From Erythrobacter sp. F6033 (GTDB lineage Bacteria > Pseudomonadota > Alphaproteobacteria > Sphingomonadales > Sphingomonadaceae): 64,000 bases of DNA. Numbering within the stretch: the stretch's first letter is position 1; every line of letters begins with the position of its first letter. The stretch covers positions 1 to 64,000 of the forward strand of contig NZ_JALKAZ010000002.1 in assembly GCF_023016005.1 (NCBI RefSeq), in the 5' to 3' direction. Shown piece by piece: positions 4,437 to 21,005 of this stretch. The position numbers and the translations under genes are program-made. The notes beneath the pieces were generated by a model, which worked only from the letters and a program-made list of their open reading frames with translations, did no database searches and was not told the origin of the DNA.

Positions 4437-4456
4437 ACGCCAATAACGGTTGATAG

Positions 4457-4498: not shown

Positions 4499-4535
4499 AA
4501 CAAACGCTTACCCAACTGTTCAAAGGATCAAATTC

Positions 4536-5234
4536 ATGAAAATCCGTGCTACATCGAAACCTGTGTCGCTCATTGTTGCTTTATCGCTTGGGCTTACCGC
4601 TTGTGGCGGGGATAGCGATGCAGAAAGCACGACCGGCGGCGATCGCTCTTCAAGTGATGACGCAGCGTCCGGCGCGGCCTTCACGCTGGAAGACAACGGA
4701 TTGGACATTTGCTTTAAAGCGGCGGCGGAGAAACTTGGCGCGAACACCAAAGTGGCCAGCCTTTCGACGAATTTCGGGGTCGGCGAAAACCTTGAGCAAT
4801 ACACTGTGGTGTCAACGGAACCTGGCCAGTTGAAGAGTTGCTCGTTGGACTACCAAGACCCCGAAAACCCGAATAAGCTGCTGCGCACGGATATGGATGT
4901 CGCAACTGGAGAGTTTAAAGCGCCTCAGCCTGTTGAAATCAGCGTCATGGGAAATGCTGCTGATTTCAGTCTGGAGAATATCGTCGTGCCTCTATCCGAC
5001 ATCAAAACAGCCGGATTTGCCGGAACTGTTGATGGAGCCAAAGCGCAGCTGGATGAAACCTTCAGCAGCCATGCTTTATCGAGTGTCCGTTTATCGGGGC
5101 CAAACCCGGGCCGTGCAGAGCACAGCATTTCTGTTGATTTTGTGGGCCGGCTCAAATCCAACGACATCCTTGACCAAGGAAGCATTGCCTTCGCAGTCGA
5201 TGGCAGCCAGCTGTACAATAATATCGGTAAGTAA
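4536..5234 (+). CDS. Putative lipoprotein of unknown function
   Basis: A 232-residue protein beginning with a short basic stretch, a hydrophobic core and a lipobox LTAC (Cys 23), so it should be lipid-modified and anchored in a membrane facing the periplasm. The stretch after the cysteine (GGDSDAESTTGGDRSSSDDA) is Ser/Asp/Gly-rich, a typical flexible linker. The remaining 180 residues look like a mixed alpha/beta domain with no motif I recognise. The ATG has AAAGGATCAAATTC upstream. It is convergent with metW, 28 bases between the stops. Confidence 0.7.
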   Translation: MKIRATSKPVSLIVALSLGLTACGGDSDAESTTGGDRSSSDDAASGAAFTLEDNGLDICFKAAAEKLGANTKVASLSTNFGVGENLEQYTVVSTEPGQLKSCSLDYQDPENPNKLLRTDMDVATGEFKAPQPVEISVMGNAADFSLENIVVPLSDIKTAGFAGTVDGAKAQLDETFSSHALSSVRLSGPNPGRAEHSISVDFVGRLKSNDILDQGSIAFAVDGSQLYNNIGK

Positions 5235-5262
5235 GCCTGATCGCCTCCACGGGTCGTCGCCC

Positions 5263-5850
5263 TCAGCGGCTCAGCTGAAACACCGCAAATTCGGCGCGCC
5301 AGTTTGATGCTGGTGCGCCGATTTGTTTTTCGCCGGAGAAAAACCACTCGCGTTCGATCTTTGCGCCCTTCGCTTTGGCAAGTTCGCGGAAGTCGTCGAT
5401 CGTCACGTGGTGGATGTTGGTCGTCTCATACCAGCTTACTGGCAAAGCCCGTGTAACCGGCATCCGGCCACCAAACATCAAAGCGGCGCGCGTGCGCCAA
5501 TGGGCAAAATTCGGGAAGCTGACAAAAGCCTTCGTTCCGACCCGCAGCAGTTCATCAAGGATGAGATCGGGACGAACCGCCGTTTGCAAAGTCTGGCTGA
5601 GAATTGCGTAATCGAACGCCTTGTCGGGATAATTCACGAGATCGGTGTTCGCATCGCCCTGAACCACCGAAAGTCCGCGCGAAACGCAGCGTTCGACCAG
5701 CTGCGGGCTCAATTCCATTCCGCGCGCATCGACGCGGCTGGCACTTTCCAGTTCAGCCATCAAAGCGCCGTCACCGCAGCCGATATCCAGCACCCGTGAG
5801 CCGGGCGCAATATGAGCCGCAATCGCGGCGAGATCTGGACGCAAACTCAT
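5263..5850 (-). CDS. metW: Methionine biosynthesis protein MetW
   Basis: A 195-residue class I methyltransferase-fold protein. The SAM-binding motif is [16 protein letters not shown] (21-36), followed by [25 protein letters not shown] and [11 protein letters not shown], all typical of MetW. In proteobacteria MetW acts with MetX in making acylated homoserine for methionine synthesis; its exact chemistry is less clear. The ATG overlaps the metX stop by four bases (ATGA), so the two are translationally coupled. Confidence 0.94.
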
Positions 5851-6944
5851 CCGATAAAGCCCTTAATCACGCGGTCCAATTGCTCGTGCGGGAGCAAGAA
5901 GCTGTCATGGCCATTGGGCGCGGACAATTCGACGAAGCTGACTTTTGCTCCCGCTGCATTAAGCGCATGAACGATGTGCTGGCTTTCTGATGTTGGATAA
6001 AGCCAGTCGGTATCGAAGCTGACCAGACAGAACCGTGCCGAAGTGCCCTCGAATGCATTGGCGAGTTTCCCGCCGTGCTCCTCCGCAAGATCGAAATAAT
6101 CCATGGCGCGAGTGATATAGAGGTAGGAATTTGCATCGAAGCGCTGGGTGAAGCCGCTGCCCTGATAGCGCAGATAGCTTTCGACCTGAAAATCCGCGTC
6201 AAAACCAAAGCTCTTGCTGTCACGGTCTTGCAGGCGGCGACCGAATTTCTCCGTCAGCCCCTCTTCGGAAAGATAGGTAATATGCGCGGCCATGCGGGCC
6301 ACCGCGAGGCCGTTATCCGGCGAGGCTTCGCCGGCGTAATAATCGCCATCTGACCAGGCGGGGTCGGCCATGATCGCTTGCCGACCCACTTCATGAAACG
6401 CGATATTCTGAGCCGAGTGCCGCGCAGTCGATGCAACTACGAGCACACGCGCAGCGCGGTCTGGCCAGTTGGCAGCAAGGCTTAAAGCCTGCATCCCGCC
6501 CATCGAACCTCCGACGACCGCGTGCAGTTCTTCGATACCCAGCCCATCGAGCAATGCCACCAATCCGCGCACCATGTCGCGGATGGTGATGACCGGGAAA
6601 CGCATCGCATAGGGCGCGCCTTCGCTCGCCTCGCTCGCGGGGCCAGTCGACCCCATGCAGCTGCCGATCACATTGGCACAGATCACAAAGTAGCGATCCG
6701 TATCGATATGTTTGCCGGGCCCGACCATGCGCTCCCACCAGCCGGGTTTACCAGTGATCGGATGGTCACTGGCGACAAATTGATCGCCGGTCAGCGCGTG
6801 GCAAATCAGGATCGCATTCGACTTATCATGAGCCAGTTCACCATAGGTTTCATAAGCAATCTGGGCGTCAGTGAGCACCTGACCGCTATCAAGCGGTAGG
6901 TCATGCGGGATCGCATGAATTTTCGATGGCTCTCCGGCGTTCAT
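5847..6944 (-). CDS. metX: Homoserine O-acyltransferase MetX
   Basis: Transfers an acyl group (acetyl, or in some proteobacteria succinyl) from CoA to homoserine, the committed step of methionine synthesis. The 365-residue alpha/beta-hydrolase fold has the nucleophile elbow GGSMGG with its serine, DWLYPTSES near the catalytic Asp, and [13 protein letters not shown] with the catalytic His. Sequence alone does not settle which acyl donor is used. It starts at an ATG divergent from hisC and forms a two-gene operon with metW. No SAM riboswitch was recognised in the 93-base intergenic region. Confidence 0.94.
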
Positions 6945-7037
6945 AGGCGAAGCGGATTGGGCGAGCGCCGCCGCCCTGTCAATTGCTCTGTTATTGCCCT
7001 GTTATTAAACGCGCGAAGCGGTTATCGCCCACCCGCT

Positions 7038-8141
7038 ATGACGACGCAGCCAGAACCCAAACCGTGGATCCTTGGCATTCACGCCTACACGCCGGGCAAA
7101 TCCACCGCGAGCGATGGCCGCGCATTGGTCAAATTGTCCGCCAATGAAAACCCGCTAGGCTCTAGCCCGGCGGCAATGGCGGCGATTGCCGAAACACGCG
7201 CAGAGGCGGCGACCTATCCTGATCCCGGCGCACATGAATTGCGCGAGAAACTGGCCGAACTGCACGGCTTGGATGCAGACCGCATCGTGTGCGGAACAGG
7301 CTCGGACGAGCTGCTCAACCTCGCGGCTCAGGGGTTTGCTGGGCAAGGCGATGAAGTGCTGTTCAGCCGTCACTCCTTCGCGGTTTACGATATCGCTGCA
7401 CGGCGCTGCGGCGCGACGCCAGTAGAGGCCGACGACCGCGATTTCATCGCCGACGTCGATGCCTTGCTCGCCGCAGTGACAGAAAAAACCCGGGTTGTGT
7501 TTCTCGCCAACCCCAACAATCCGACAGGCACATGGATCGCGCCATCCGAAGTCGAGCGGCTTCATGCTGCATTGCCATCGAATGTGTTGCTCGTGATCGA
7601 CGAAGCCTATGCCGAGTATCTCGATCCAGATTTGCAGCATGTAGGTTTCGATCTTGCCGCAGCGCACGACAATGTCTTGGTGACACGGACATTTTCGAAA
7701 ATCTACGGGCTTGCCGCAGAGCGGATCGGATGGGCGACCGGTGCGCCCGGCCTGATAGACGTGCTCAACCGCATCAGAGGCCCGTTCAACGTGACTGTAA
7801 GCGGTCAGAAAGCAGCACTGTCGGCGCTCAGCGACCAGAGTTTTGTTAACGAAAGCCGCGCGCACAATACGTCTGAGCGCGCGCGTTTCGCAGAGGCTAT
7901 TGCGGCGCTCGGCAATCACGGCCTTTCGGTTGTGCCAAGCGAGGCCAATTTCTTGCTCGTGGAATTCGCAGGCGATGTCACTGCCGTGGCTGCGCTCGAT
8001 GCAATCGCAAAGGCTGGTTATGCGGTGCGTCACTTGCCCGAACCGGGACTGAAACATTGCCTGCGCATCACCATCGGCAAAAGCGAAGATATGGACCGAG
8101 TCACCGCAGCCCTGCGCGAATTATGCGGAGAGGCAGCATGA
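7038..8141 (+). CDS. hisC: Histidinol-phosphate aminotransferase HisC
   Basis: PLP-dependent aminotransferase of histidine synthesis; relatives also transaminate aromatic substrates, which fits the prephenate dehydrogenase gene overlapping its end. The 367 residues carry LSANENPLGSSP, the PNNPTG cofactor motif, VIDEAYAEY, and TFSKIYGLAAERIGW with the Schiff-base lysine. The frame is open upstream, but the ATG at 7038 gives the family length and leaves the metX-hisC spacer. Its stop overlaps the next start as ATGA. Dual use in histidine and tyrosine/phenylalanine synthesis is an inference from this pairing. Confidence 0.93.
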   Translation: MTTQPEPKPWILGIHAYTPGKSTASDGRALVKLSANENPLGSSPAAMAAIAETRAEAATYPDPGAHELREKLAELHGLDADRIVCGTGSDELLNLAAQGFAGQGDEVLFSRHSFAVYDIAARRCGATPVEADDRDFIADVDALLAAVTEKTRVVFLANPNNPTGTWIAPSEVERLHAALPSNVLLVIDEAYAEYLDPDLQHVGFDLAAAHDNVLVTRTFSKIYGLAAERIGWATGAPGLIDVLNRIRGPFNVTVSGQKAALSALSDQSFVNESRAHNTSERARFAEAIAALGNHGLSVVPSEANFLLVEFAGDVTAVAALDAIAKAGYAVRHLPEPGLKHCLRITIGKSEDMDRVTAALRELCGEAA

Positions 8142-9040
8142 TCAGCAATGTTGCGATTATCGGCCTTGGATTACTGGGCGGCTCAATCGGCCTTGCCATC
8201 GATGAACTCGCGCCAGAGATCACTACTACCGGCTATGATCGCGATCCGGCAACGCGCGCCGCAGCAGCCAAGCGGAACCTTGTCGGTACGGTCTGCGAAA
8301 CAGCCGGTGAAGCGGTCGCCAACGCAGATCTTGTGATCCTGTGCGTGCCCGTTGGCGCGATGGAGGATGCCGCGCGTGAAATGGCTGATGCTCTCCCCAA
8401 AAACGCAATCATCAGCGATGTCGGCTCTTCGAAGCAAAGCGTGGGTGAAGCTCTCGCCAAGGCTCTGCCAGATCACACCATCATCCCCGCGCACCCAGTT
8501 GCGGGCACCGAGCAAAGCGGGCCAGAAGCAGGCTTTGCCTCGCTGTTCACCAATCGCTGGTGCATTCTCACTCCGGCGGCTGACGCCAATAAAAATGCCG
8601 TCCAATCGCTCAGCGAATTCTGGACGAAGCTCGGCGCGAATGTCGAGATTATGGATGCCGAGCATCACGATCTCGTCCTGGCTGTGACCAGCCACATTCC
8701 GCACCTTATCGCCTTTACGATCGTGGGCACCGCCAGCGACCTTGAAGAAGTCACGCGAAGCGAGGTGATCAAATATTCCGCTGGTGGCTTCCGCGATTTC
8801 ACACGCATTGCGGCCTCCGATCCAGTGATGTGGCGCGATGTGTTCTTGTCTAACAAATCAGCCGTGCTGGAAATGCTGGGCCGTTTCTCAGAAGACCTCA
8901 CCGCCCTACAACGCGCGATCCGCTCAGGCGACGGCGATACGCTGCATGAACTCTTCAGCCGCACCCGCGCGATCCGGCGTCAGGTGATCGAAGAAGGGCA
9001 AGATGATGATCGGCCCGACTTTGGACGGGAAGATCATTAG
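8138..9040 (+). CDS. tyrC: Prephenate/cyclohexadienyl dehydrogenase
   Basis: NAD(P)-dependent oxidation of prephenate or arogenate toward tyrosine. The 300-residue protein opens with the Rossmann motif GLGLLGGSIG (residues 8-17). It then has DLVILCVPVGAM, DVGSSKQSV and HPVAGTEQSGPEAG, the conserved substrate-binding region of the TyrA family. No chorismate mutase or ACT domain is attached. The ATG overlaps the hisC stop by four bases. The 3' end overlaps plsC convergently by four bases. Confidence 0.92.
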   Translation: MISNVAIIGLGLLGGSIGLAIDELAPEITTTGYDRDPATRAAAAKRNLVGTVCETAGEAVANADLVILCVPVGAMEDAAREMADALPKNAIISDVGSSKQSVGEALAKALPDHTIIPAHPVAGTEQSGPEAGFASLFTNRWCILTPAADANKNAVQSLSEFWTKLGANVEIMDAEHHDLVLAVTSHIPHLIAFTIVGTASDLEEVTRSEVIKYSAGGFRDFTRIAASDPVMWRDVFLSNKSAVLEMLGRFSEDLTALQRAIRSGDGDTLHELFSRTRAIRRQVIEEGQDDDRPDFGREDH

Positions 9041-9726
9041 TTCAGAGCGTTAAGCGCTGCGTGCGCGCGCGCTTCAACCTCGTCACGCGGCAATCCAGCC
9101 GGTATGGTTTCACCCACATGATACGTGATGGTGCCCGGCTGTTTGATGATCCGGTTGTAAAGCGGTCCGCTGTTCACCGCGACCGGCACGACTGGCAGTT
9201 TGAGCAATTTATAGATACCCGCAAAGCCCGATTGCAGCGGCGGTTTCTTGCCATGTTCAACGCGCGTCCCCTCAGGGAAGAGCACCAGCGGGCGCCTCTC
9301 CTCAATCCGCTTGCGAGCTGTAGCAATCATCGCACGCAGCGACTTGGCTCCGCCGTCGCGAGCAACCGGAATCAGGCCGTAAACCTTCGCCGAAAACCCC
9401 CAGCCCGGAATCGCGAACAATTCTTTCTTCGCAAAGACCGTCGGAAAGGCAAACAAGCGCGGCATATCAATCGCCTCGAAAAAGCTCTCATGCTTCACGA
9501 GGATCAGCACCGGTTCGTCCGGGATCACACCTTCCTGCACGATTTTAATTCCAAGCAGGTTGGTGACGCACCAATGATGCCACACGCCCCATGTTGCCAC
9601 GACATACCGCAAACGGTTCCGGCCAAATGGAATGGCGAGCACCGACGCGACCACAAGAATGGCCGAAAACCCGTAAAAGGCGGGGTAGAACAAAAGGCTG
9701 CGTAGAATCGCCACGATGTGCGCCAT
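9037..9726 (-). CDS. plsC: 1-acyl-sn-glycerol-3-phosphate acyltransferase
   Basis: Acylates lysophosphatidic acid to phosphatidic acid at the inner membrane. The 229-residue protein has an N-terminal membrane segment (about 10-32) and the acyltransferase block I as KHESFFEAID, a variant of the usual NHxxxxD. FPTVFAKKELFAIPGWG and FPEGTRVEHG are blocks II and III. The start overlaps the stop of the DUF218 gene by one base (TAATG), so the two are co-translated. Confidence 0.9.
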   Translation of the reverse strand: MAHIVAILRSLLFYPAFYGFSAILVVASVLAIPFGRNRLRYVVATWGVWHHWCVTNLLGIKIVQEGVIPDEPVLILVKHESFFEAIDMPRLFAFPTVFAKKELFAIPGWGFSAKVYGLIPVARDGGAKSLRAMIATARKRIEERRPLVLFPEGTRVEHGKKPPLQSGFAGIYKLLKLPVVPVAVNSGPLYNRIIKQPGTITYHVGETIPAGLPRDEVEARAHAALNALN

Positions 9727-10256
9727 TAGAGGCCGATTAGGCCGGACGTCCAGCTTGCTAGCAGCTTATGGTATTCAAGAAACAACGATCCGAAGCTCGG
9801 CTCTGATGGAACGGCATCACGGATAACCTTCACACCGTCAGGCAATTTGCGAGACAGCTCGCCCGCCGCACGCCGCATATGCCAATCTGTTGTGACCAGT
9901 CGAAGCGAAGACACCTCATTGTCTTCGACCCATTGGGCGATTTCCGAAGCGTTTCCGCGCGTGTCCACCGCTGCAAAGCCCAGAGTGATACAGCATTCGA
10001 GCATCTCTTCATCGACATCGAATTGCGCAACAAATTCCGCTGGTTTCACCTCACGGTCTACACCGCTGACCAACATCCTTTTCGCGAGGTCTGCATCCAA
10101 TACCGCCAGACCCTGAGCAATGCGTCCCTCGCCGCCGGTCGGCACCACAACGGCATCGGTTGCTATGTCATCTGCCGGTTGCGGCAGCGCGACGACAAAC
10201 CACAGGAAGCCGATAGCCCACAGCAGAAAAATTGCGGAGATAGAACGTTTGATCAC
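9726..10256 (-). CDS. YdcF-like (DUF218) protein
   Basis: A 176-residue protein with an N-terminal membrane segment (about 5-24) and a DUF218/SanA-like domain. The domain shows VVPTGGEGRIAQGLAVL near its start, LVTTDWHMRRA in the middle and AVPSEPS near the end. Proteins of this fold are linked to envelope integrity and lipid carrier metabolism, without a firm reaction. The start is a GTG 11 bases after the ftsX stop, and plsC overlaps its end, so ftsE-ftsX-this gene-plsC form one envelope operon. Confidence 0.82.
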   Translation of the reverse strand: MIKRSISAIFLLWAIGFLWFVVALPQPADDIATDAVVVPTGGEGRIAQGLAVLDADLAKRMLVSGVDREVKPAEFVAQFDVDEEMLECCITLGFAAVDTRGNASEIAQWVEDNEVSSLRLVTTDWHMRRAAGELSRKLPDGVKVIRDAVPSEPSFGSLFLEYHKLLASWTSGLIGL

Positions 10257-10267
10257 AGGATAGAGAC

Positions 10268-11224
10268 TTACAACATCGACCTGAGAGCAACCTTAATGGT
10301 CACGCGCGCGGTCAACAGCGCCAAGAGCACTCCAGCAATCGGGATTGCCGCGATGATAAGCCAGTCGCTCCATGCCAGACCACCTCCGCCAATCATTCCG
10401 CTATCCAGCGCTGCAAACTGCTGACCAAGCAGCCAGACTGCGGCGATGCCCAACGCTAGGCCCACCAGCGATCCAAAGGCTGCATCCCTAACAACCGAGC
10501 GTTGAAAAATCCGCGTGACCTGTGCGTCTGTTCCGCCAAGGAGGTGGATCACTTCCACCGTCTCACGATGGTTGGAAAACGCGCTGCGGGCCGCCAACCA
10601 AACGGCCGCTCCGGTGGCGAATGCCACCAGACCGATCAGAGCCAAGGCCAGATATTGCAGTGCGGCCAGCGCATCATAGACTGGCTTCAACCAGTCGGAC
10701 TGCGCATCAACGCGGGTGCCTGGCACAGCTTCATCCAGCGCGGCCTGCAAACCTTGAACTTCGCTCGCCGATGCGTTGCGGGACAATTCGACATCTATCA
10801 AAGCAGGGACAGGCACATCGTCGCTGCCCGCTGCCGCGCCGAGCCATGGTTCAAGCAACGCGTTCAGTTCCTCTTCGGGAACGACGCGCACTGATGTGAC
10901 CAAAGGTTGATCTGCCAACGTTGCTGCGGCGCGCGCCGCCAATGCATCGCGGCGCTCACCGTTGGCCTCGATAATCTGGACTGTGACCGCGCCAGAAAGA
11001 TCCGCGCGCGCATTTTCTGCTAGGTTGCGCAGCGACAGCCCTCCCGCTGCCGCGATAACGACCAAAGCGATAAGGATGGCGATGACCCAAGGAATCGGTC
11101 CGCCAAATTTTGTCTGCGGCAGCAAACGAGCTGCCAATCCGCCGCGCATCTTCGGATAGTCCGGATGATCGGCAGGCTTGGCACTCTCAGTTGCCGTTTG
11201 TTGGGGAAGTGGCGGCGTCCCCAT
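10268..11224 (-). CDS. ftsX: Cell division protein FtsX-like permease
   Basis: Membrane half of the FtsEX complex, which links ATP hydrolysis to activation of septal murein hydrolases. The 318-residue protein has an N-terminal cytoplasmic tail, a membrane segment near 50-70, a periplasmic domain of about 120 residues, and three C-terminal segments (about 190-215, 240-265, 285-305). That is the FtsX plan of four membrane passes. An ATG sharing one base with the ftsE stop (TGATG) was preferred over the GTG one codon earlier. Confidence 0.9.
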   Translation of the reverse strand: MGTPPLPQQTATESAKPADHPDYPKMRGGLAARLLPQTKFGGPIPWVIAILIALVVIAAAGGLSLRNLAENARADLSGAVTVQIIEANGERRDALAARAAATLADQPLVTSVRVVPEEELNALLEPWLGAAAGSDDVPVPALIDVELSRNASASEVQGLQAALDEAVPGTRVDAQSDWLKPVYDALAALQYLALALIGLVAFATGAAVWLAARSAFSNHRETVEVIHLLGGTDAQVTRIFQRSVVRDAAFGSLVGLALGIAAVWLLGQQFAALDSGMIGGGGLAWSDWLIIAAIPIAGVLLALLTARVTIKVALRSML

Positions 11225-11958
11225 CACCCGCCCTTCTTGCTGTTTTCAGGCCGAGGAGGGAATTTCAGAGCGCCGGTCGGGTCTGAAAGCCTGCCCTTGT
11301 TGAGCCGCATGATCAGCGAATCCGGCACTTTCTTGAGCAAATGCACATCGTGGGTCGCCACCACAACAGTTGTGCCGACGCGGTTATTGAGCGCCTCAAA
11401 CAGACGCAGCAATTTAAGCGCCATTTCAGGATCAACATTGCCCGTCGGCTCATCGGCGATCAGCATTTGGGGACGCGCAATAACCGCGCGAGCAATCGCC
11501 ACGCGTTGCTGTTCACCGCCGGACATTGTCGCCGGGATCGCTTGCGCGCGGTGGGACAAGCCCACCCAATCAAGCATATCGGACACCGCTTTGATCACTT
11601 TGGTTTCGTTCGTTCCCGCCAGTCGAAGTGGCAGAGCGACATTGTCGAATGCAGAGAGGTGCTGAACCAGGCGAAAATTCTGGAACACCACACCAAGCCG
11701 TCGCCGAAAATCGGGCAATCGATCACGCGGAAGAGTGATCATGTCTTTGCCGAACATGCGGATCGCGCCGCGCGATGGTCTCTGCGAAAGGTAAAGCAGC
11801 TTCAACAGGCTTGTTTTGCCAGCGCCGCTTGCACCGGTGAGGAAGTAGAAACTGCCCGGATAGAGCGTGAAGCTCAGATCGCTCAAAACCTCTGGATCGG
11901 TGCCATAGCGCAGCCCGACATTGTCGAATTTCACTATTTCACTCGGGCGATCATTCAT
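11224..11958 (-). CDS. ftsE: Cell division ATP-binding protein FtsE
   Basis: ABC ATPase partner of FtsX. The 244-residue protein has Walker A TGASGAGKTSLLKLL (37-51), a Q-loop in VFQNFRLVQHLS, the signature MSGGEQQRVAIARAV, Walker B MLIADEPTG and the switch His in VVATHD, so it should be active. The C-terminal tail is short and basic. The gene diverges from the zinc-ribbon gene with a 166-base spacer. It heads a four-gene minus-strand operon. Confidence 0.94.
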   Translation of the reverse strand: MNDRPSEIVKFDNVGLRYGTDPEVLSDLSFTLYPGSFYFLTGASGAGKTSLLKLLYLSQRPSRGAIRMFGKDMITLPRDRLPDFRRRLGVVFQNFRLVQHLSAFDNVALPLRLAGTNETKVIKAVSDMLDWVGLSHRAQAIPATMSGGEQQRVAIARAVIARPQMLIADEPTGNVDPEMALKLLRLFEALNNRVGTTVVVATHDVHLLKKVPDSLIMRLNKGRLSDPTGALKFPPRPENSKKGG

Positions 11959-12124
11959 GCGGCGGGCTTATCAGCGGCTCTCGTCTCGGGAAAGCGCGCA
12001 ATGAGCGATTTCACCGCAGAAACCGCCAAGGGGGCGCTCCAATGTGGAAAAAAGCACGCTATTTCATCGTTCGGGCCTGCTTACTCTTGTGCGCGTACCC
12101 GCCATCCTTAATGCAAATGACGCA

Positions 12125-13030
12125 ATGATAATTTCCTGCCCCGCCTGTTCGACCCGGTATGTCGTGCCCGATACCGCAATCGGCGCCGAAGGTCGCACAG
12201 TCCGCTGTGCGAAGTGCAAGCATAGCTGGTTTCAGGATTCCGAACCGCTCGATCTAACGCGGCCCGTAGAAGAAAACGCAGTGAAGGCTGAGCCGGCGCA
12301 GGCTGAGAAGCCAATACCAGCCGCGCCGACGAATGACGCCGCTGATGCAGGACCATCGATCAGCCATTGGCGCACCGAAGATCGTGAGGACATTACGAGG
12401 CCATCGGCGCCGGCCGATGTCGAAACATCTTCTGTATCCGTGCCTGAGCCTGAGCCTGAAATTTCAGAACCACCGGTCCACAGTGCTTTTGACGACGATA
12501 CAGATCCGCTCGCCGATCAAAGCATCCCGGATGAGGCCTTTGACGACAGCGAGTATGACGACGAGCCATCACAGTTCGACTATGTCCCGCCGTTTCGTGC
12601 ACGCCGCAATCCGCTGAAAATGTGGACGATAGCCGCTGCGGCATTTGCTTTGATGGCAACCGGCACCGTTGTTGCTGTCAATTATTACGGCCTGCCCGAC
12701 TGGTTCCCGCTCCAACGCCCGACATTCGGCATTGGTAAGCCCGACCTCACTCTCGACTTTCCAGCTGCCGAACAACGGACCGAAACCCTTGAAACCGGGG
12801 AAGAGATTTTTCGGGTTGGCGGGACGATTACAAATTCCGGCCGCGAATCGACCACAGTGCCAAGTTTGCTCGTTGTGTTCAGAGACGAGCGTAAGCGCAA
12901 TGTTGGGACTTGGGTAATCGTCCCTTCGAAGCGCGAGCTTGCACCGGGTGAGAGCCTGAATGTGACCGAAGCAATCGCAGATATTCCGGCATCGGCGACC
13001 GAAGCAGAAATCGGCTGGTCGCCAGCCTAA
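12125..13030 (+). CDS. Zinc-ribbon membrane protein with DUF3426 domain
   Basis: The 301-residue protein starts with an MJ0042-type zinc ribbon: CPAC at residues 5-8 and CAKC at 30-33, followed by HSWFQ. A 120-residue acidic, Pro-rich linker comes next, then one membrane segment (about residues 168-190). The C-terminal domain ([25 protein letters not shown]) matches the DUF3426 pattern and should lie in the periplasm. This architecture is common in alphaproteobacteria next to ftsEX and its function is unknown. An ATG beginning the zinc-ribbon sequence was chosen; the frame is open upstream. Confidence 0.85.
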
Positions 13031-13139
13031 CCTTTAATAATCGCACGGGGCGCTCAAACCACTTGCGCCGCGTGATACCCCTTGCTAGTGGCGCGCTCCT
13101 ACCAAGCGGGGCCATTCACATCGCCCCTGCTGACTGTGT

Positions 13140-13226
13140 GCGGTCGTGGCGGAACTGGTAGACGCGCAACGTTGAGGTCGTTGTGGGCTAACGCCCGTGG
13201 AAGTTCGAGTCTTCTCGACCGCACCA
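13140..13226 (+). tRNA. tRNA-Leu (anticodon GAG)
   Basis: An 87-base cloverleaf with encoded CCA. The acceptor arms are GCGGTCG (13140-13146) and CGACCGC (13216-13222). The anticodon stem is CAACG/CGTTG around loop TTGAGGT, giving GAG for CUC/CUU. There is a long variable arm (TGGGCTAACGCCCG) as expected of tRNA-Leu, and a TTCGAGT T-loop. The low-GC peptide locus begins about 650 bases downstream. Confidence 0.97.
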
Positions 13227-13877
13227 AACAGTCCAAAGTGGGCTTTGATATCGGTCTACAACCGTTTCAGCCCAGACCATTTCATATTGCCGCCTTAGAG
13301 CCCGCTATTATCGTGTCGCTCTTACCCACGCGAATTTTGAGATAGTCAGCATTCTCATCGGCACGTCCCGGAATATCCTTGCGGCCTAGATGTTGGACGG
13401 CCTTGGTTAAACCCAGTCAACGTTCCGGTCACCGATGTCGTTAAACATCCTCCGCCTCGCGTGGTCTCAAAATCCCAATCAGCTGAGCTGCGCAGTGAAA
13501 TCACAGTCTTGATGAGTTATTCGCGATACCAGCGCGACTGGATGATCGAGAGGCAGCCGCGCGCAAGCATGCCCAACGGCTCTTTCGAGTAGCTAACACA
13601 TACGAAGTTCAGTTTGAGATCGGACCCAGCATAAAAGGCGCGCAGATCACCGAGACAACTTCGATTTATCGTTGCGGGGAGGAAGGTTGAAGATCAATCG
13701 GCTGCTGTCACCGCGCGATACGCGAGCAAGCTCATAGGAATGGCGTCGAGATGCCCGTCCATGCACCGATATCGAATGGATGTCAGCTCGATCCACTGCC
13801 TCTAATGTCGCGACAAGCGGTTTGGACGACGATGTGACCGACTTTCCACCTCGCCGTTTCACTTCTGGATCAAGGAT
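13227..13877. other. 651-base stretch without a convincing gene
   Basis: Between the tRNA and the JmjC-like gene no reading frame has both a family resemblance and a good start. On the minus strand 13647-13862 is open for 71 codons from a GTG, but it is Arg/Ser-rich, has no clear ribosome-binding site and resembles nothing I know. On the plus strand 13341-13589 is open for 83 codons without a usable start near its beginning. Either could be a decayed gene left at a tRNA-proximal junction. No copy of the tRNA 3' end was found by eye at the other edge of the locus. Confidence 0.5.
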
Positions 13878-14762
13878 TTACAGTAGGTCGTCCGCAGATT
13901 TCGAGAAAAGCTGCCCGAATGAATTCGTCATGTGTTCTCGTGCCCGAGCTCGCATCATTTGCTGTGCGGCTTCACGCAAAGCATCGAGGTCGGAAATTCT
14001 TCCAAGCCAAGAAGAAGATTCAATGCCGGCAGGCCGGGAATGACCTTGATGGCCTGCGTCCAATACCGAAGAGCGAAACGTTTCGTCTGTATCACCAAGG
14101 TCTTGTACCAGTTCCGAAATCACATCGAACCATGTCAAGGGAAGCAAGTTAATGACCAGATGAAGGGAATCCCGTTCATTGGCCATCGCATGGTGGACAT
14201 GACCGCGAGGAATGAACAACGCATCGCCGACCCGGGTTGTATGCTCACTGGCATCAATGAACTCAAAGCTTTCCGGTCGTGCCTCGGACTGTCTTGGATG
14301 AGCGTTGGCCGTCTGTGCGAAGCTGTCGACTTTCCACTTCTTGGTGCCGTGAAGTTGTACTGCCAGCACATCGCAAACATCGATATGGCTGGGCGTCGAG
14401 CGAGCACCCGCCGGGCTGTACATCGCGGCAATGGTTACGTTGAAGTAACCCGTTTGCGCCAGAGTTGCCGCCAGCTCGCGAAGGCGCTGGTCCATCAACT
14501 CAACTCGTTTGACGTAGATGCTGGTCTTCGACGCCTTCAGATGTATGAGCGTGTCCAGATTAAGCGACCCATTGGGTCTGATCGCTTTCGACCAAGTGTC
14601 GCTGCAGGGACCTTCCCGGCCATTCGCATAGAATCGAATTTCTTCTTCATTGCGCCACCGATGGTCGCGCAACAATTCAAAAAATGATTTCAGACAAAAA
14701 TCATTGCCGGGCAGGAGCTTGTCCGACAGGAAAGCAGTCTTTCCCTCGATGTGGCTTCGCAC
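13878..14762 (-). CDS. JmjC/cupin_4-like Fe(II)/2OG oxygenase in RiPP locus
   Basis: A 294-residue protein with the cupin_4/JmjC pattern known from ribosomal oxygenases. HID (His 126, Asp 128) within a stretch ending DVLAVQLHGTKKW gives two iron ligands, and GDALFIPRGHVHHA supplies the distal His (190 or 191) after a typical late-cupin strand. Such enzymes hydroxylate peptide or protein side chains using 2-oxoglutarate, so here the likely substrate is the nearby precursor peptide. That is inference. The start is a GTG with GAG ten bases upstream. The frame stays open for about 30 codons upstream with protein-like sequence but no usual start, so the N-terminus is uncertain. It is the last gene of the minus-strand cluster. 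Confidence 0.78.
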   Translation of the reverse strand: MRSHIEGKTAFLSDKLLPGNDFCLKSFFELLRDHRWRNEEEIRFYANGREGPCSDTWSKAIRPNGSLNLDTLIHLKASKTSIYVKRVELMDQRLRELAATLAQTGYFNVTIAAMYSPAGARSTPSHIDVCDVLAVQLHGTKKWKVDSFAQTANAHPRQSEARPESFEFIDASEHTTRVGDALFIPRGHVHHAMANERDSLHLVINLLPLTWFDVISELVQDLGDTDETFRSSVLDAGHQGHSRPAGIESSSWLGRISDLDALREAAQQMMRARAREHMTNSFGQLFSKSADDLL

Positions 14763-14871
14763 GATTTTCTCAGCTGACTCTGCAGAGCAAAGGCCGTTAA
14801 ATAATCGTGGCGAAAGCGCGATTTTATCGACGTCAAATATCCCGGAATTCTCAGCCTAGAAGCACCAGAGA

Positions 14872-14893
14872 CTGAGCCTCCAACTGGGCTCAG
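14872..14893 (-). other. RNA hairpin across the precursor stop codon
   Basis: CTGAGCC (14872-14878) and GGCTCAG (14887-14893) form a perfect 7-bp stem with an 8-base loop. The stop codon of the precursor gene (14890-14892) lies inside the stem. No T-run follows in the direction of transcription. Many RiPP operons limit read-through after the precursor by such a stem, which would lower expression of the downstream JmjC-like gene. That role is inferred. Confidence 0.5.
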
Positions 14894-15030
14894 GACATTT
14901 GGAGTATGCTAGGGAACTCTGATGGGTCCGGGAAGGGACCAGTCGCTGTACCCGCGATATCAAGGACATGCAGTTCAGGCTTCTCAAACGGCTTCTTGCT
15001 AACAGTTTGCTCTTCGGTGCTCGTTGCCAT
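14890..15030 (-). CDS. Lasso-type RiPP precursor peptide
   Basis: A 46-residue peptide. The leader has KKPFEKPELHVLDIAGTA, in which an aromatic-x-x-P-x-L-x-V-L-D-I pattern and a Thr two residues before the cleavage point match lasso leaders. The proposed core is TGPFPDPSEFPSILQMS: Glu at position 9 could close a nine-residue ring with the Thr amine, leaving an eight-residue tail ending in Ser. Cleaving one residue later gives a Gly1-Glu8 ring instead. From memory, the leader and ring spacing resemble the paeninodin group, whose clusters also carry a kinase. The ATG at 15030 has GGGAG eight bases upstream; the frame is open further upstream but that part is not precursor-like. The gene follows the cyclase by 77 bases, whereas most lasso operons put it first. 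Confidence 0.8.
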   Translation of the reverse strand: MATSTEEQTVSKKPFEKPELHVLDIAGTATGPFPDPSEFPSILQMS

Positions 15031-15107
15031 GGTATTCTCCCTTAATCCCGTCAAAGACCATCTGACCGGCGCGTTGTCAACATTCGGTAGGCTGGGTATC
15101 GAAATCT

Positions 15108-16964
15108 TCAGTTTTCTCGAAGCCATAAACACAATTGGCGTACATGCCACATGACATGGCGTGACCTCATAACAAGCGGATCCATCGGATTGACAGGATT
15201 GTCGATAAGCGTCTGTGTTGCGTCGAAATCTTCACGGACAAACAGGGTCTGAAGTTCTTGTGGCAGATCATCAAAATGGATTTTCGGGTAAGATTCAGAT
15301 CGCAATTCTGCCCCGAGAAACGGGCCCATATCTTTCGTAGGCTGCCATGCAATGCTCGCAGGAATTGTATCGGCGACTGCGTTTCTGTGAAGAAGGCGCC
15401 CCATCTGGCCTTGCCGCTTCTCAATCGAGGGGGTGCCAAGAAACATCTGTATCAACCGGCGATCGTAAAGCGGGAAGCGATAATCCATCCCATACGTCGC
15501 TGCGAACAGGGCCGAAGATTCCAGTCTTCCAGTCCGGCCATATCGGAATCCAGGGGAAAGCGCAGCGATCTTGTTGAGCTTACCCTCCTCGACATCGGGG
15601 AGCATCCACGTCTCGATCCGCTTTTTCAGGCCGCTATCCTCGAAATATTCGGAAGAAACAAACGACGCCGCGAGCTTCGCAGAAAGCTGCGAGCGGAGGC
15701 CACTGTTTGGATCATGCGGCCCCTCAATCAATCTCCTCAGAAAGCGTGCAGACCGACGCATCGGGCTGCCCTCGATCTCGGCAAATACCGCGCGCCATTC
15801 GCGCCGGTGGTGCAATTCATCGATCAGGTGCTTGGCGTAGCTGGTGACAATCTCATCTCCGCCGAAACCGGAAAGAACACTGCGAACGCCAAGGCCTTGC
15901 GCGCTTGCAAAGAATCCTGCGCTCAAGAGCGGCTGGCCGTGCTCTGGAGGATGGCCGATAGCTTTGATCGCGCGGTCTACGCTCTCATCAATACGCAGGA
16001 TTTCAGGCGTGATATCCCTTTGGTTGCAAAAGGGTCCCAATGCAGCGGACAGTTCATCAAGCAGGTCGATCTCGCGCTGGTGAACAACCATCGAATAAGT
16101 ATACAAGCGATCCAGATCGTGCGGGAAAACCTTGACCAATCGGCCGAGTATTGATGCTGAATCCAGACCTCCCGAATTTTCGGCGCCAATGAGAAATTCG
16201 CTGCGGGTGCGGACATCCACTGCATTGTTGAAACCTTCACGATACCGCTCCACCCATGCTGCGTCGCGGGTCGTCGAGTGCGGAGCTTCCAGATCAAACT
16301 CGTGATAGCGCTGTGGTTCTTCGGGCTCGCCGTTTCTTATCGTGAGGTGATGACCGGGTAGAATCCGAAGAACGCCTTCATAGGCCGTCTCTTCTTCCGC
16401 AAGGCTGAATCCCGAAGCAAATAATGCGATCCAATCCAGATTGGGCTTGCGGGATGTGCCCTCAATGTTCTTGATCGCTGCAATTGATGTTGAAACGACG
16501 AAATGGCTGTTTGTGCTGGTGTAAAAGAGTGGCTTCACACCAATGGCGTCTCGGGCACAAAAGGATTCATTTGTGGCCGGATCGTGGATGATGAAGCTGA
16601 AATCCCCTTCCAACCGATCAACGCAGTCTGTCCCCCATTTGCGATACGCCGCGAGGATGATTTGCGGGTCAGACAAGCTGGTATGGTCCGACAGACGCAG
16701 TTGAGCACACAGTTCAGGTCGATTGTCCAACCGCACCCAACAGGCAATGATCCTTCCTGTTTCTCGGCAAATCTCCGGCGTGCGTTCTAGCAAAGATGTC
16801 GGCGTATTGTGATGAAGTGCCTGTGCAATCAGCGCTCTATCATCGTCCCACCCGCCCGCTGCATCAGGGGGGGTGTATGGGGCGAGCGCATCAATCAAAG
16901 CGTCGCTTCGGACAATTTCTCTAGGCGGCTTCCCGCCCTTTCGAGCCAGTATTGCGGCAAACAT
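15108..16964 (-). CDS. Asparagine-synthetase-like lasso cyclase (C protein)
   Basis: A 618-residue protein of the AsnB family. The N-terminal glutaminase-like half (1-210) keeps the fold (LEGDFSFIIHDP, CARDAIGVKPLFY) but begins MFAAI, lacking the Cys 2 nucleophile needed to hydrolyse glutamine. The synthetase half has the PPi loop SGGLDSAS (around residue 265) and SGFGGDEI. In lasso systems this enzyme adenylates an Asp or Glu side chain of the core and closes the macrolactam. It starts five bases after the B1 stop and is followed by the precursor gene. A stand-alone amidotransferase for another substrate is possible, but the neighbours argue for a RiPP cyclase. Confidence 0.88.
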   Translation of the reverse strand: MFAAILARKGGKPPREIVRSDALIDALAPYTPPDAAGGWDDDRALIAQALHHNTPTSLLERTPEICRETGRIIACWVRLDNRPELCAQLRLSDHTSLSDPQIILAAYRKWGTDCVDRLEGDFSFIIHDPATNESFCARDAIGVKPLFYTSTNSHFVVSTSIAAIKNIEGTSRKPNLDWIALFASGFSLAEEETAYEGVLRILPGHHLTIRNGEPEEPQRYHEFDLEAPHSTTRDAAWVERYREGFNNAVDVRTRSEFLIGAENSGGLDSASILGRLVKVFPHDLDRLYTYSMVVHQREIDLLDELSAALGPFCNQRDITPEILRIDESVDRAIKAIGHPPEHGQPLLSAGFFASAQGLGVRSVLSGFGGDEIVTSYAKHLIDELHHRREWRAVFAEIEGSPMRRSARFLRRLIEGPHDPNSGLRSQLSAKLAASFVSSEYFEDSGLKKRIETWMLPDVEEGKLNKIAALSPGFRYGRTGRLESSALFAATYGMDYRFPLYDRRLIQMFLGTPSIEKRQGQMGRLLHRNAVADTIPASIAWQPTKDMGPFLGAELRSESYPKIHFDDLPQELQTLFVREDFDATQTLIDNPVNPMDPLVMRSRHVMWHVRQLCLWLREN

Positions 16965-16969
16965 GCCGA

Positions 16970-17263
16970 TCAGTCAGCTGGGCGCACCAGCCCCTTGTCC
17001 AGCAACATGGCCAAGTATTCAGAGATCAGGCTTTCAGGATCGCCTGCGCCTTCCATGTCGTACTCTGCTTTCAGAGCAGCGACCAATTCGCCCACACATA
17101 GAGGATCGGCGAGCTTTTCCCATATGAAAGGCCCGCTGCCAGTGAGCGCGAAATAGGACCCTTGCTGCACGTCCATCATGACCAATTCGCCGTCCATATC
17201 CGTCGCCACCACGTCGCTAGCTCGAACATATCGGACGTCTTCTGCAATTGTTATTGTGCTCAT
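16970..17263 (-). CDS. PqqD-like leader-binding protein (lasso B1/RRE)
   Basis: A 97-residue stand-alone RiPP recognition element. The motif DGELVMMDVQQGSYFALTGSG followed by a winged-helix-like stretch (IWEKLADP, LVAALKAEYD, LLDKGLV) is the PqqD/lasso B1 pattern. Such proteins bind the leader peptide and present it to the processing enzymes. The ATG at 17263 is chosen because AAGGG lies five bases before it; an in-frame ATG at 17284 directly follows the kinase stop. The fused or separate B2 transglutaminase-like protease that normally accompanies B1 is absent. Confidence 0.87.
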   Translation of the reverse strand: MSTITIAEDVRYVRASDVVATDMDGELVMMDVQQGSYFALTGSGPFIWEKLADPLCVGELVAALKAEYDMEGAGDPESLISEYLAMLLDKGLVRPAD

Positions 17264-17284
17264 TCTGGCCCTTTCCGATGGCAT

Positions 17285-18232
17285 CTAATCAATAGAGAGA
17301 GCGGCCAAATTGGGCAAGTGATGCGATTGTTGAAGATCGAGGATCATGTCGACCAGCGCATCAATCTCAAAACCATCGCGAGAACGCGAAACCCTTACTA
17401 TCTCAGTCGCCTCACAGAGTTTCGATACTTGGGCCAAGCACTGCTTTTCGTTTTGCAGGGCGAGGTTGAAGATCGGACGATAAATGTTGTTACGAAGTGC
17501 GGTGAACTTCGAGAAACCGATGAGAGGAGTTGCAGTTGTCTGGTCAGACGGGGTTTGATCCAGAAGCACAATCAAACCGGGCTTCAATGGCGCCGGGCTT
17601 ACGGGTTCAGGCAATGGAACATTCCACTTGGGACGATCGCCTGGTATTCTTTCGAGACCGCGTTCGTCCACCCCAAGCTGGGCGACGGCATCATCCCATA
17701 ACTTAATCCGGGCCAAACCGGGGTAGATCATTCCATCCGATGCAATCGGGCAGACATCGTCGGACAGCACACCATATCCGCGTAGCATCATGGCCGCTGC
17801 TGTGGTCGACTTGCCCGCACCTGATTCCCCCATACAAATCAGCGCAGTCCCATCGGGCATTGCAAGTGCATTGGCATGGAGTACCAAAGCGCCTCGTTGC
17901 GCGAGCAATGCGCCCATTCCAGATCCGAGCAAGTAAGCGCGAAGCTCTGGCTGAGTGAGACAATCGCTCGCTTGGTAGCTGATCGTCCTTCCATCCAGGA
18001 TCCGCATCGTCAGTTTGCCCGGGATGTGCATCCAGATTTCTCCGGGTTGCCCCCTAAGGTAATCGTCAATCTGAGGGAGTTCGGCAGATGCCGACCAGTC
18101 CAACTGCTCTTCTCTGATGTGAATGTCGGGCGAAGCTTCATCCGGTGTGGGCATCAGCTCTGGCAAGGAGATATCACTCGCGACGACGAGCCCGTGGATC
18201 ACTCCTATCACTTTCGATGCGGTGGATGACAA
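17285..18232 (-). CDS. HPr-kinase-like kinase of RiPP locus (K)
   Basis: A 315-residue protein related to the C-terminal domain of HPr kinase. The P-loop GESGAGKST (135-143) follows a preceding helix with HANALAMPDGTALICM; VLSDDV (155-160) and PGLARIKLWDD (about 171-181) fit the catalytic Asp and the HprK signature region. In lasso clusters of this type the kinase phosphorylates the C-terminal Ser of the precursor, and the precursor here ends in Ser. The start is a TTG with GGGAG eleven bases upstream; in-frame GTG codons seven and ten codons later are alternatives. B1 begins almost at its stop. Confidence 0.82.
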   Translation of the reverse strand: MSSTASKVIGVIHGLVVASDISLPELMPTPDEASPDIHIREEQLDWSASAELPQIDDYLRGQPGEIWMHIPGKLTMRILDGRTISYQASDCLTQPELRAYLLGSGMGALLAQRGALVLHANALAMPDGTALICMGESGAGKSTTAAAMMLRGYGVLSDDVCPIASDGMIYPGLARIKLWDDAVAQLGVDERGLERIPGDRPKWNVPLPEPVSPAPLKPGLIVLLDQTPSDQTTATPLIGFSKFTALRNNIYRPIFNLALQNEKQCLAQVSKLCEATEIVRVSRSRDGFEIDALVDMILDLQQSHHLPNLAALSID

Positions 18233-18441
18233 AACGATCGAAACTCCCGGTTTCAGTTATACTTCGTTGGCCGGGCAATGGCGTACCGATAGTCCTTTGG
18301 TCCACTTACCTTTGCACCGTATCATCAAAAAGCAATGGTCGAACAGCAACGCTCCACGGTGTCTGTCGCGCTGTGCAAGGCCAAGACCAAATCAAGTTTC
18401 GCACATCGAGGGAGCAACACAGAAGGTGTAGGGGTCGAGGC

Positions 18442-19092
18442 TCATTCTTGGGTGCTGGGTTCGCCCGTCTGATTGATCCAGCAATTTACCGAAAAGCGTC
18501 CTGCCTCAAAATCCTGTGAAGGCACGGCTATCGGCAGCACTTCGTGGAAAAAAATGGAAGGGAAGAACAGCATAGTGTTGTTCTGGGGTTCGACCCGAAC
18601 CGATTGCGTTTGATCCAGCGAATAGAGCTCGAGCTCACCGCCTTGAAAGCGCTTTGGCTGAGTGCAGTAATAGTAGACGGCGCTGATCACTCTGAAACGT
18701 CCTGCCTCGCCCCGCACGGTATCGATATGCCGAGAGAAAAACGCTCCGTCGCCATTGTGCACTGCTTCAATCTCGAAGCGATGGGCTGCGGGAAAAGGAA
18801 CGCCGATCGCATCTGCTATCCGAGCTTCGCAAGCTCGGATGCGCCGCTTAAAAATTTCCTTAAACACTGGATCGATCTTGCGTTGTCCTGAGCGCCGCGT
18901 GCCTGTGTTGACGATGCCTCCCTCTATTCGACCATCACGGTTTTCCGTGATCTGGCTCGGCGCATAATCCGTTTCATGAGCGAGTGAATCTTCGAGTAGC
19001 GCCGCATGTTCGGATGGAGACAGAAAATCGGTTTCCACGTGGTGTCGGGGCAGCCGCGCGGTGACCGAAGTCGAAATGTTAGCTTGCTTCAT
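18442..19092 (-). CDS. 2OG-Fe(II) oxygenase (prolyl-4-hydroxylase-like), RiPP locus
   Basis: A 216-residue oxygenase with a double-stranded beta-helix. Ligands are His 122 and Asp 124 in FFSRHIDTVRG and His 183 in FFPSIFFHEV; Arg 199 in GRFSVNCW is the expected 2-oxoglutarate anchor. GGELELYSL is the usual mid-domain strand. This is the pattern of the P4H/PKHD group, which hydroxylates Pro, Lys or Arg in peptides. The proposed core has four prolines, so proline hydroxylation is a natural guess. The ATG at 19092 overlaps the previous gene by 14 bases, giving the family length; a longer start is possible. A 209-base gap without a gene separates it from the kinase. Confidence 0.84.
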   Translation of the reverse strand: MKQANISTSVTARLPRHHVETDFLSPSEHAALLEDSLAHETDYAPSQITENRDGRIEGGIVNTGTRRSGQRKIDPVFKEIFKRRIRACEARIADAIGVPFPAAHRFEIEAVHNGDGAFFSRHIDTVRGEAGRFRVISAVYYYCTQPKRFQGGELELYSLDQTQSVRVEPQNNTMLFFPSIFFHEVLPIAVPSQDFEAGRFSVNCWINQTGEPSTQE

Positions 19093-19663
19093 AATAGCTA
19101 TCGATTGGATCGGCGGCGCGTCCATCAAACGGACGCTCCGCAAATTCTCCGTCGGCAAGCACATAGTGGAAAAGCAATTGCATCTGCGAAGCTCCGACAA
19201 ATGGTTGTCGCCAATGAGGGACCTCGTGACCTTGGTATAGCAATGCGGTTCCGAGCTTTAGGCTGAGAGCCTGCTGATTGGACTGCATATCCTCGATCCA
19301 GATCGGCCAGTCGACGTCTACCGGGTTTCGATCAATGGTAATACTTGCGCTGATTTCACACCCAACGCGGTCAACGTGACGCTTTAGCTCCGCGCCTTCT
19401 TCATAGATTCGCCAATATGCAAAGCTTTCAACCAGTTTGCGGCCGATGGCGTCTTCGAACACCGGCCGGCAATGCCGCAAAAGCATCTCTCCGATTGCGG
19501 GGGAGTATTCATCCCTAGCCTTGAATACGCAGCCTGAATTTCGTTCCCGCATTGGGGAATGCCTTGCTTGGTGAGAGAGCGACGCAACCGCGAGGTCAAG
19601 CTTCGATTGATCGAACAGATCCTCGATCACAACGTATCCGCGTTCCCAGAAGTGATTTTTCAC
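19079..19663 (-). CDS. Second Fe(II)/2OG oxygenase-like protein, RiPP locus
   Basis: A 194-residue protein, first gene of the minus-strand block. ELKRHVDRVGCEISASITI supplies His 96 and Asp 98, and ALLYQGHEVPHWRQPF supplies the distal His (150 most likely). The end MQLLFHYVLADGEF fits the last strands of a beta-helix oxygenase. The sequence is clearly different from the downstream oxygenase, so this is not a recent duplication. It starts with GTG and its ribosome-binding site is weak. The 236-base spacer to adhC must carry the promoter, but I could not define one. Substrate is unknown; the locus suggests the peptide. Confidence 0.75.
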   Translation of the reverse strand: MKNHFWERGYVVIEDLFDQSKLDLAVASLSHQARHSPMRERNSGCVFKARDEYSPAIGEMLLRHCRPVFEDAIGRKLVESFAYWRIYEEGAELKRHVDRVGCEISASITIDRNPVDVDWPIWIEDMQSNQQALSLKLGTALLYQGHEVPHWRQPFVGASQMQLLFHYVLADGEFAERPFDGRAADPIDSYYEAS

Positions 19664-19842
19664 TGTTCGGTCCAGTCCATAGTGTGGCGCGTGTCACAAT
19701 TCTTAAAGATCATGCCGCATCTATCGAGGCATGTCCATTTGGACCTCTGGAAGAGGCCTGACCGCTGCAATAGGAGCCTTACGCAGCTCGGGCGGAGCAG
19801 AGATGCGTGGGGTGTCCAGCGCCCAATCCACTCTCGCGATGA

Positions 19843-21005
<1,163 letters not shown>

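Follow-up and report, generated by a model that had tools for sequence, protein, structure and literature searches.

A kinase-type lasso-like peptide gene cluster with three different 2-oxoglutarate oxygenases and no leader peptidase gene in cis in Erythrobacter sp. F6033

We analyzed a gene cluster of Erythrobacter sp. F6033 (genome G000 of our set) for a ribosomally synthesized and posttranslationally modified peptide (RiPP) resembling the lasso peptides. The cluster consists of seven tightly packed minus-strand genes that span positions 13878 to 19663 of the window, that is, of the whole 64,000-nucleotide stretch of DNA studied here. We read it, with a probability of about two in three, as a paeninodin-like, kinase-type lasso pathway that yields a phosphorylated and hydroxylated product, to which three iron- and 2-oxoglutarate (2OG)-dependent oxygenases have been added and in which the leader peptide is removed in trans. 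The kinase-type lasso cluster with its three oxygenases is confirmed as real, and its conservation spans genera in at least one case. An earlier note, written from this DNA alone, had named a kinase-type lasso-like RiPP locus; the cyclase, which groups apart from AsnB, and the presence of the oxygenases with the cyclase in a second genome (G338) both support that description.

Along the minus strand, the gene order is OG1, OG2, K, B1, C, A, and JmjC, all at the place and on the strand where the earlier note had put them. The oxygenase genes OG1 (19079 to 19663) and OG2 (18442 to 19092) overlap by 14 bases, and 209 bases separate OG2 from K (17285 to 18232), which encodes an HPr-kinase-like peptide kinase. 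K is followed without a gap by B1 (16970 to 17284), a stand-alone PqqD-like RiPP recognition element (RRE), and then, after 5 bases, by C (15108 to 16964), a putative lasso-type macrolactam cyclase that resembles asparagine synthetase. The precursor gene A (14890 to 15030) lies 77 bases beyond C, and the gene for JmjC (13878 to 14762), a JmjC_2 (cupin_4) oxygenase of the ribosomal-oxygenase-like kind, lies 127 bases beyond A.

The same seven genes occur in identical order and strand in a genome of another genus of the same family (G338, locus L040). Identities between the two loci are 46% for OG1, 50% for OG2, 41% for K, 46% for B1, 51% for C, and 57% for JmjC, and the precursors are 69% identical over 35 residues (L040 core, GPVPDPFEFPMILQMS). 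Since this arrangement recurs in a second genus, the oxygenases are part of the cluster. L040 differs from the window in having an open, divergent gene for the leader peptidase B2 and, next to the cluster, a fourth 2OG oxygenase that contains tetratricopeptide repeats (TPR). Full-length relatives of JmjC were found in 2 of 397 genomes of the family, which are exactly the two with the seven-gene cluster (F6033 and G338), and in 1 of 385 genomes of the class (F6033); one further family genome, G337, had a single match of 36% over 121 residues. In a protein collection, OG1 homologs and cyclases come from contigs of equal size in three cases (53526, 729132, and 495608), a size fingerprint that may place further OG1 and cyclase genes together.

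Cyclases of the window's group were present in ten genomes (G000, G002, G089, G096, G158, G249, G338, G469, G498, and G508). The earlier note had made its claim depend on whether the oxygenases co-occur with the cyclase elsewhere, and the answer is divided: all three accompany it in G338, but the oxygenase set stands beside the cyclase in only two of the ten genomes (G000 and G338). Two loci, L041 (G469) and L065 (G498), share K, B1, C, and A with the window and have near-identical cores (GPFPDPSEFPTILQMS and GPFPDPSEFPGILNMS); unlike the window, they possess B2 and have no oxygenase of the three kinds within 20 kb. Phage tail-collar genes of the PF07484 type adjoin the kinase lasso clusters L034, L035, L041, and L065 (L041 by domain search, the others by eye).

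C matches PF00733 and PF13537 and carries SGGLDS at residue 264. Its residue 2 is Phe in place of Cys, so the earlier note was right to call it a cyclase that lacks Cys 2. The lasso cyclase model NF033535 gave 257 bits (cutoff, 525) versus 151 for asn_synth, and XrtA amidotransferase models also matched. We rejected the NF033535 score as a demonstration of lasso cyclase identity since two paralogs in the same genome score similarly (L027, 309 bits; L029, 256 bits); the model is indecisive because C falls below the cutoff and a paralog without a visible lasso setting scores higher. Phylogeny was assessed in trees whose rows include no experimentally studied lasso cyclase. In a 32-row tree, C fell inside a 25-row group (support, 99/99) together with the cyclases from K/B1/B2-bearing loci, and Escherichia coli AsnB and two other F6033 paralogs fell outside it; the metabolic grouping that the earlier note had held against itself was thus not seen. 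In a 39-row tree, C belonged to a 13-row clade (100/99). Its nearest relatives are P0002 to P0004, at 64 to 69% identity. Placed by the tree with the cyclases of B2-bearing clusters, C is probably a lasso-type cyclase.

The 46-residue precursor that the earlier note had claimed is present: A reads MATSTEEQTVSKKPFEKPELHVLDIAGTATGPFPDPSEFPSILQMS, contains four prolines and a final Ser, and matches the paeninodin family model NF033524 at 17 bits (cutoff, 27). Its leader motif, FEKPEL, is of the YxxPxL-like kind. We compared it with the precursors of L033 to L036, L040, L041, and L065, and all eight share [FY]xxP[EV][LM], T-x-x-G-x6-E, and the final Ser. From the invariant Gly onward, the window has GPFPDPSEFPSILQMS, and the precursors not yet given read GVVVGTPENVSYIS (L033), GPKTFTQEILTLFTPS (L034), GPATFTQEVLIYYTPPS (L035), and GTAVFTQEVLVYYTPPS (L036). 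No precursor was recognized beside the cyclase of L037, and L067 gave no match in a similarity search with A only. The core may begin at the invariant Gly (GPFPDPSEFPSILQMS), with a ring from Gly1 to Glu8 and the invariant Thr at −3. Alternatively, should Thr28 correspond to the Thr(−2) of lasso leaders (described in the accessible text of PMC10368454), the core is TGPFPDPSEFPSILQMS with a ring from Thr1 to Glu9. The expected [M+H]+ is 1730.81 for the Gly1-Glu8 form and 1831.86 for the Thr1-Glu9 form. With either start, the ring acid is at core position 7 to 9. We withdrew Gly1-Glu8 as the settled ring, as it would leave the invariant Thr at −3. A weak precursor-like match elsewhere (L052, 1842 to 1943, in G469; 38% over 34 residues; E value of 5e-4) lies roughly 8 kb away from that genome's OG1-type genes and may be due to chance.

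K matches Hpr_kinase_C and HprK_rel_A, both below the cutoff. H119, K141, D158, and D159 make up the His-Lys-Asp-Asp set that has been described in lasso kinases (PMC9266682, accessible part). In a nine-row alignment, the Lys and first Asp are present in every row and the His and second Asp in eight, the kinase of L035 being the one without them. As a precedent, PadeK phosphorylates the C-terminal Ser of its precursor according to the available text of the same review (PMC9266682). B1 matches PF05402 (45.5 bits), the lasso PqqD model NF033536 (60.7 bits; cutoff, 80), and, below its cutoff, the NCBIfam model PqqD_rel_X; its sequence matches in the PDB include the lasso RREs 9x90, 5v1u (TbiB1), and 6jx3 (TfuB1).

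The three oxygenases are of three different kinds. OG1 (194 residues) has no Pfam or NCBIfam match and is the only gene whose name in the earlier note found no backing in domain searches; it was identified by alignment and by an AlphaFold2 model as a 2OG-Fe(II) oxygenase with a prolyl-4-hydroxylase fold. The model, built on a 12-row alignment, has a mean pLDDT (predicted local distance difference test) of 89.3, and its top PDB matches are the prolyl-4-hydroxylase of Pseudomonas putida and PHD2. H96, D98, H146, and H150 are invariant in the 12 rows (OG1 itself included), and the iron ligands are H96 and D98 plus either H146 or H150; the HxD and GHxxPHW motifs are also present in the OG1 of L040. 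OG2 (216 residues), a PHD2/PKHD-like member of 2OG-FeII_Oxy_3 (PF13640, 64.3 bits), finds PKHD-type and PHD2 structures among PDB sequences. Its start is probably the ATG at 19092, which gives the 14-base overlap with the OG1 stop; numbered from there, its residues H122, D124, H183, and R199 include the ligands H122, D124, and H183. JmjC matches PF08007 (64 bits) with H126, D128, and H190, and among PDB sequences it finds MINA53 and the L16 arginine hydroxylase. HxD...H ligands are thus present in all three enzymes and are retained in their L040 counterparts. OG1 by modeled fold and OG2 by sequence appear to be of the prolyl-hydroxylase type, a resemblance from which proline hydroxylation may be predicted.

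Relatives of OG1 and OG2 are not confined to such clusters. We rejected OG1 as a lasso-only enzyme since copies lie away from lasso genes in five other genomes of the genus (G383, G435, G463, G469, and G498), in stretches without other cluster genes. Relatives of OG2 with 31 to 37% identity in G469, G498, G096, G158, and G002 are far from the cyclases found there, and a 26% relative in G089 sits in the kinase cluster L095. Reading neighbors by eye, we saw OG1-type genes next to phoH in G498 (L050, 8513 to 10770) and G463 (L051, 899 to 1447); G498 has two OG1-type copies, with miaB also adjoining.

The leader peptidase was the missing component. Neither tblastn nor a profile search found a PF13471-type B2 in the window, whereas B2 lies in or beside eight of nine other loci of the cyclase group (L033 to L037, L040, L041, and L065); at L067, no B2, K, or B1 was found in 20 kb. 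The earlier note had taken the precursor, B1, and C as the lasso core, and these are present, but it had left B2 out of account. In L040, the B2 gene runs divergently between OG2 and K, and in L041 and L065 it does so beside K. In and beside the OG2-K gap of the window, a plus-strand piece of about 22 residues (18404 to 18469; EAHSWVLG-like, not an open gene) resembles the EAHAWV end of B2. Eight B2 proteins scored against this piece with a mean of 38.5, a value reached by 4 of 2,400 control stretches of the same genome (mean, 28.05; standard deviation, 2.2) and, in a smaller test, by none of 160. When the panel's highest individual score was taken instead, 92 of the 2,400 controls equaled it, single queries were mostly within the range of a few shuffles, and the profile search missed the piece. 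We consider it a likely, if faint, B2 relic.

Elsewhere in the F6033 genome, three open frames match PF13471 over the cutoff (C1:564890, 625996, and 680346). One belongs to a second kinase cluster (L032), and no lasso cluster was visible around the other two (L030 and L031). The L031 protein is 59 to 63% identical to the B2s of the L037 type and 44% identical to that of L041. Being closer to the former, it represents a sister type and not the lost gene, and we rejected the idea that it is the original B2 relocated; its grouping with another cluster type also makes recognition of the A leader by it uncertain. Within the 13-row cyclase clade, L040 has B2 (in its DNA), the window has none, and P0008 comes from a contig of the same size (6242) as a B2 protein, P0187. 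For P0002 to P0007, P0009 to P0011, and P0020, no B2 was found on a contig of equal size among the best 120 of 159 matches, in a search that needs shared words. A study of pseudomycoidin reportedly announces in its title a synthesis without leader and leader peptidase.

Taken together, these features suggest a pathway in which B1 would bind the FxxPxL leader and K would phosphorylate the final Ser while the precursor is still linear. The core, likewise linear, would be hydroxylated by OG1, OG2, and JmjC, with prolines or the Asp as the most plausible targets. The leader would then be cut off, we infer, by a B2 from another locus of the genome, and C would join the new N terminus (precursor Gly31 or Thr30) to Glu38 around the tail. 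Phosphorylation and macrolactam formation are proposed here on homology, and a heavily hydroxylated product is a prediction; the cleavage site, ring size, modified residues, action of the oxygenases on A, and activity of the locus are likewise deduced. Several observations weigh against this pathway. B2 is absent in cis, and the L031 protein groups with the B2s of another cluster type, not with those of L040 and P0187. No transporter or isopeptidase gene was recognized among the seven genes. The rules for placing the core start (invariant Gly versus Thr at −2) disagree, and the F6033 paralog that scores 309 bits with the lasso cyclase model has no visible lasso setting. OG1 and OG2 have stand-alone homologs away from lasso loci. 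Finally, since L041 and L065 share the proline-rich core without the oxygenases, the core does not predict them, which weakens the proline-rich core as the reason for their presence.

Among the alternatives, we gave most weight to decay, in which B2 has been lost and the pathway has stopped, with the other genes still intact because the loss is recent. This is unlikely in our view, although some observations favor it: the related loci have B2 where the window retains its weak trace, between OG2 and K or beside K, and the window's OG2 extends at its C terminus past the end point of the L040 protein. However, all seven genes are open and retain their catalytic motifs, and because just some 22 residues of the B2-like piece are left while those genes stay open, the loss is not very recent. 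P0002 to P0004 (64 to 69% identical to C) also lack B2 on equal-sized contigs among the matches listed by the insensitive search above. Window and L040 differ most at third codon positions, a pattern that cannot date the loss. A RiPP without lasso topology, again phosphorylated and hydroxylated, is improbable. In that case C would act differently, because without B2 there would be no free amine at the N terminus of the core. B2 was found neither in the 17 kb of the kinase cluster L095, whose cyclase is 27% identical to C, nor in the 20 kb of L067; moreover, in a RiPP family built on an HprK-like kinase, an RRE, and a nucleoside triphosphate (NTP) transferase, canonical lasso enzymes are present in about one-third of the loci (PMC13381572, accessible text). 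Against this stand T-x-x-G-x6-E in all eight precursors and the open B2 gene of the oxygenase-bearing relative L040.

The oxygenases could also be neighbors whose substrates are not the peptide but other proteins, such as EF-Tu or those of the ribosome. The nearest solved relatives of JmjC (MINA53 and the L16 arginine hydroxylase), the prolyl-4-hydroxylase solved with EF-Tu that OG1 resembles, and the stand-alone homologs of OG1 and OG2 would fit such a role. The overlap of OG1 with OG2, the 127-base distance of JmjC from A, the gene order kept in a second genus, and the restriction of full-length JmjC to the cluster in the sampled genomes make it quite improbable. As for a metabolic or surface-polysaccharide locus of the asparagine synthetase kind, the matches of C to asn_synth and XrtA amidotransferase models and the below-cutoff matches of K to HprK_rel_A and of B1 to PqqD_rel_X could be cited in its favor. 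We rejected it as highly implausible on the cyclase tree and on the precursors, which show the lasso leader and core pattern beside C in eight loci.

The earlier note knew of no described lasso system with three distinct oxygenases. Three in one cluster are not unique: L040 has four, L095 has three of other families, and L032 has two. The cluster of the window therefore stands as one design among several in the family and is not a freak. L032 (G000:C1:558000-571000, 4011-12916), the second kinase-type lasso-like cluster of F6033, contains a TPR-2OG and a 2OG_Oxy_3 oxygenase, a sulfotransferase, K, B1, B2, a cyclase on a long branch outside the 25-row group, and a sulfatase, with an NTP transferase on the other strand. 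L095 (G089:C1:326000-343000, 5707-14445) has a TPR-2OG oxygenase, two proteins resembling Asp/Asn beta-hydroxylases (PF05118; 54.7 and 25.8 bits; cutoff, 22.6), two sulfotransferases, and two kinase-like proteins; no B2 was found in its 17 kb, and G089 has a B2 in another cluster, L037. Tentatively, the window may represent a sphingomonad lasso lineage that combines oxidation by prolyl-hydroxylase-type and JmjC enzymes before threading with Ser phosphorylation, and that has dispensed with its own B2 and borrows that of another locus, L095 of G089 being a parallel case. Another candidate parallel without B2 was dropped: L069 (G000:C1:143000-160000, 7457-14472) had no B2 by profile search, but in the tree its cyclase-like protein falls beside L068 and not within the lasso group; by eye, its neighbors are a methyltransferase, a kinase-like gene, an ABC transporter, and an NTP-transferase-like gene. 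L066 (G435:C149, 608-14138) appears to be a larger RiPP locus: besides a B2, it has a TPR-2OG oxygenase, an ABC-transporter-like gene, and more than one kinase-like gene. L064, on a 5.9-kb contig (G408:C158), has K, a sulfotransferase, B2, a second kinase-like gene, and then a B1-like piece.

The downstream edge of the cluster is marked by tRNA-Leu(gag) (13140 to 13226, plus strand). The order ftsX, ftsE, the gene at 12044, tRNA-Leu(gag), and adhC is common to the window and G344 of the same genus, and the interval between the tRNA and adhC, where the cluster lies, is 6.7 kb here versus about 1.6 kb in G344. Because G344 keeps the gene order with a much shorter interval, the cluster looks like an addition at this site. 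The pairing of tRNA-Leu(gag) with adhC was not found in stretches of 6.3 to 6.5 kb from five other genomes; in G041, tRNA-Leu(cag) adjoins adhC. The G+C content of the cluster (0.51 to 0.55) is slightly below that of the left flank (0.56 to 0.60) and hardly below that of the right (0.54 to 0.58). A tRNA-derived attachment site was rejected, as no part of the tRNA longer than 11 bases recurs exactly within 13227 to 20200. Rfam gave no match in the window at the gathering cutoff. The search for related loci returned one distant locus only, and a plasmid search returned 329 records, all below 60% identity, with none above 29% among the 25 matches listed.

In the parts of the literature accessible to us, lasso clusters have already been predicted in several Erythrobacter species, and their presence in this genus is therefore no novelty. 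Few lasso tailoring enzymes have been characterized. In the accessible text of reviews, including PMC9266682, CanE is the sole proven lasso 2OG hydroxylase named; one review excerpt names ResE as an unproven lasso hydroxylase, and the available text of another names hydroxylation for RES-701 only and cites CanE. No lasso JmjC enzyme was described in the accessible text of the literature that we found on both lasso peptides and JmjC. The near-identical cores with the three oxygenases (window) and without them (L041 and L065) form a natural set for the effect of hydroxylation on threading, stability, and activity. The absence of B2 makes the sharing of a leader peptidase between RiPP pathways of one cell testable, which is the opposite side of work, accessible in part, on the ways in which two RiPP families keep from interfering with each other (PMC13381572). 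According to the accessible text of that report, leader removal in the family with the HprK-like kinase, RRE, and NTP transferase is the task of a peptidase of the signal-peptidase-like kind (PMC13381572).

Among known systems, the window is most readily compared with the kinase-type paeninodin and SyanA pathways, with which, as far as the accessible text of PMC9266682 describes them, it shares an HPr kinase homolog with the His-Lys-Asp-Asp set, a discrete B1, C, and a core that ends in Ser. It differs in that its seven genes include no B2 or transporter, in having three 2OG oxygenases, and in a precursor below the NF033524 cutoff. The biphenomycin-like cluster bpm has a predicted JmjC hydroxylase, BpmG, and is in this respect like the window; unlike the window, it uses multinuclear iron-dependent oxidase (MNIO) and B12-dependent radical S-adenosylmethionine chemistry, and the accessible part of its description includes no lasso cyclase (PMC12257519). 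The canucin A pathway resembles the window in having a 2OG enzyme, CanE, in a lasso cluster, where it works on the precursor together with CanB1 (PMC9266682, accessible text). In that account, from whose description CanE was compared, canucin A has one hydroxylase that targets the C-terminal Asp14 and no kinase is mentioned, whereas the window encodes three such enzymes, two of the prolyl-hydroxylase type and one JmjC_2 oxygenase.

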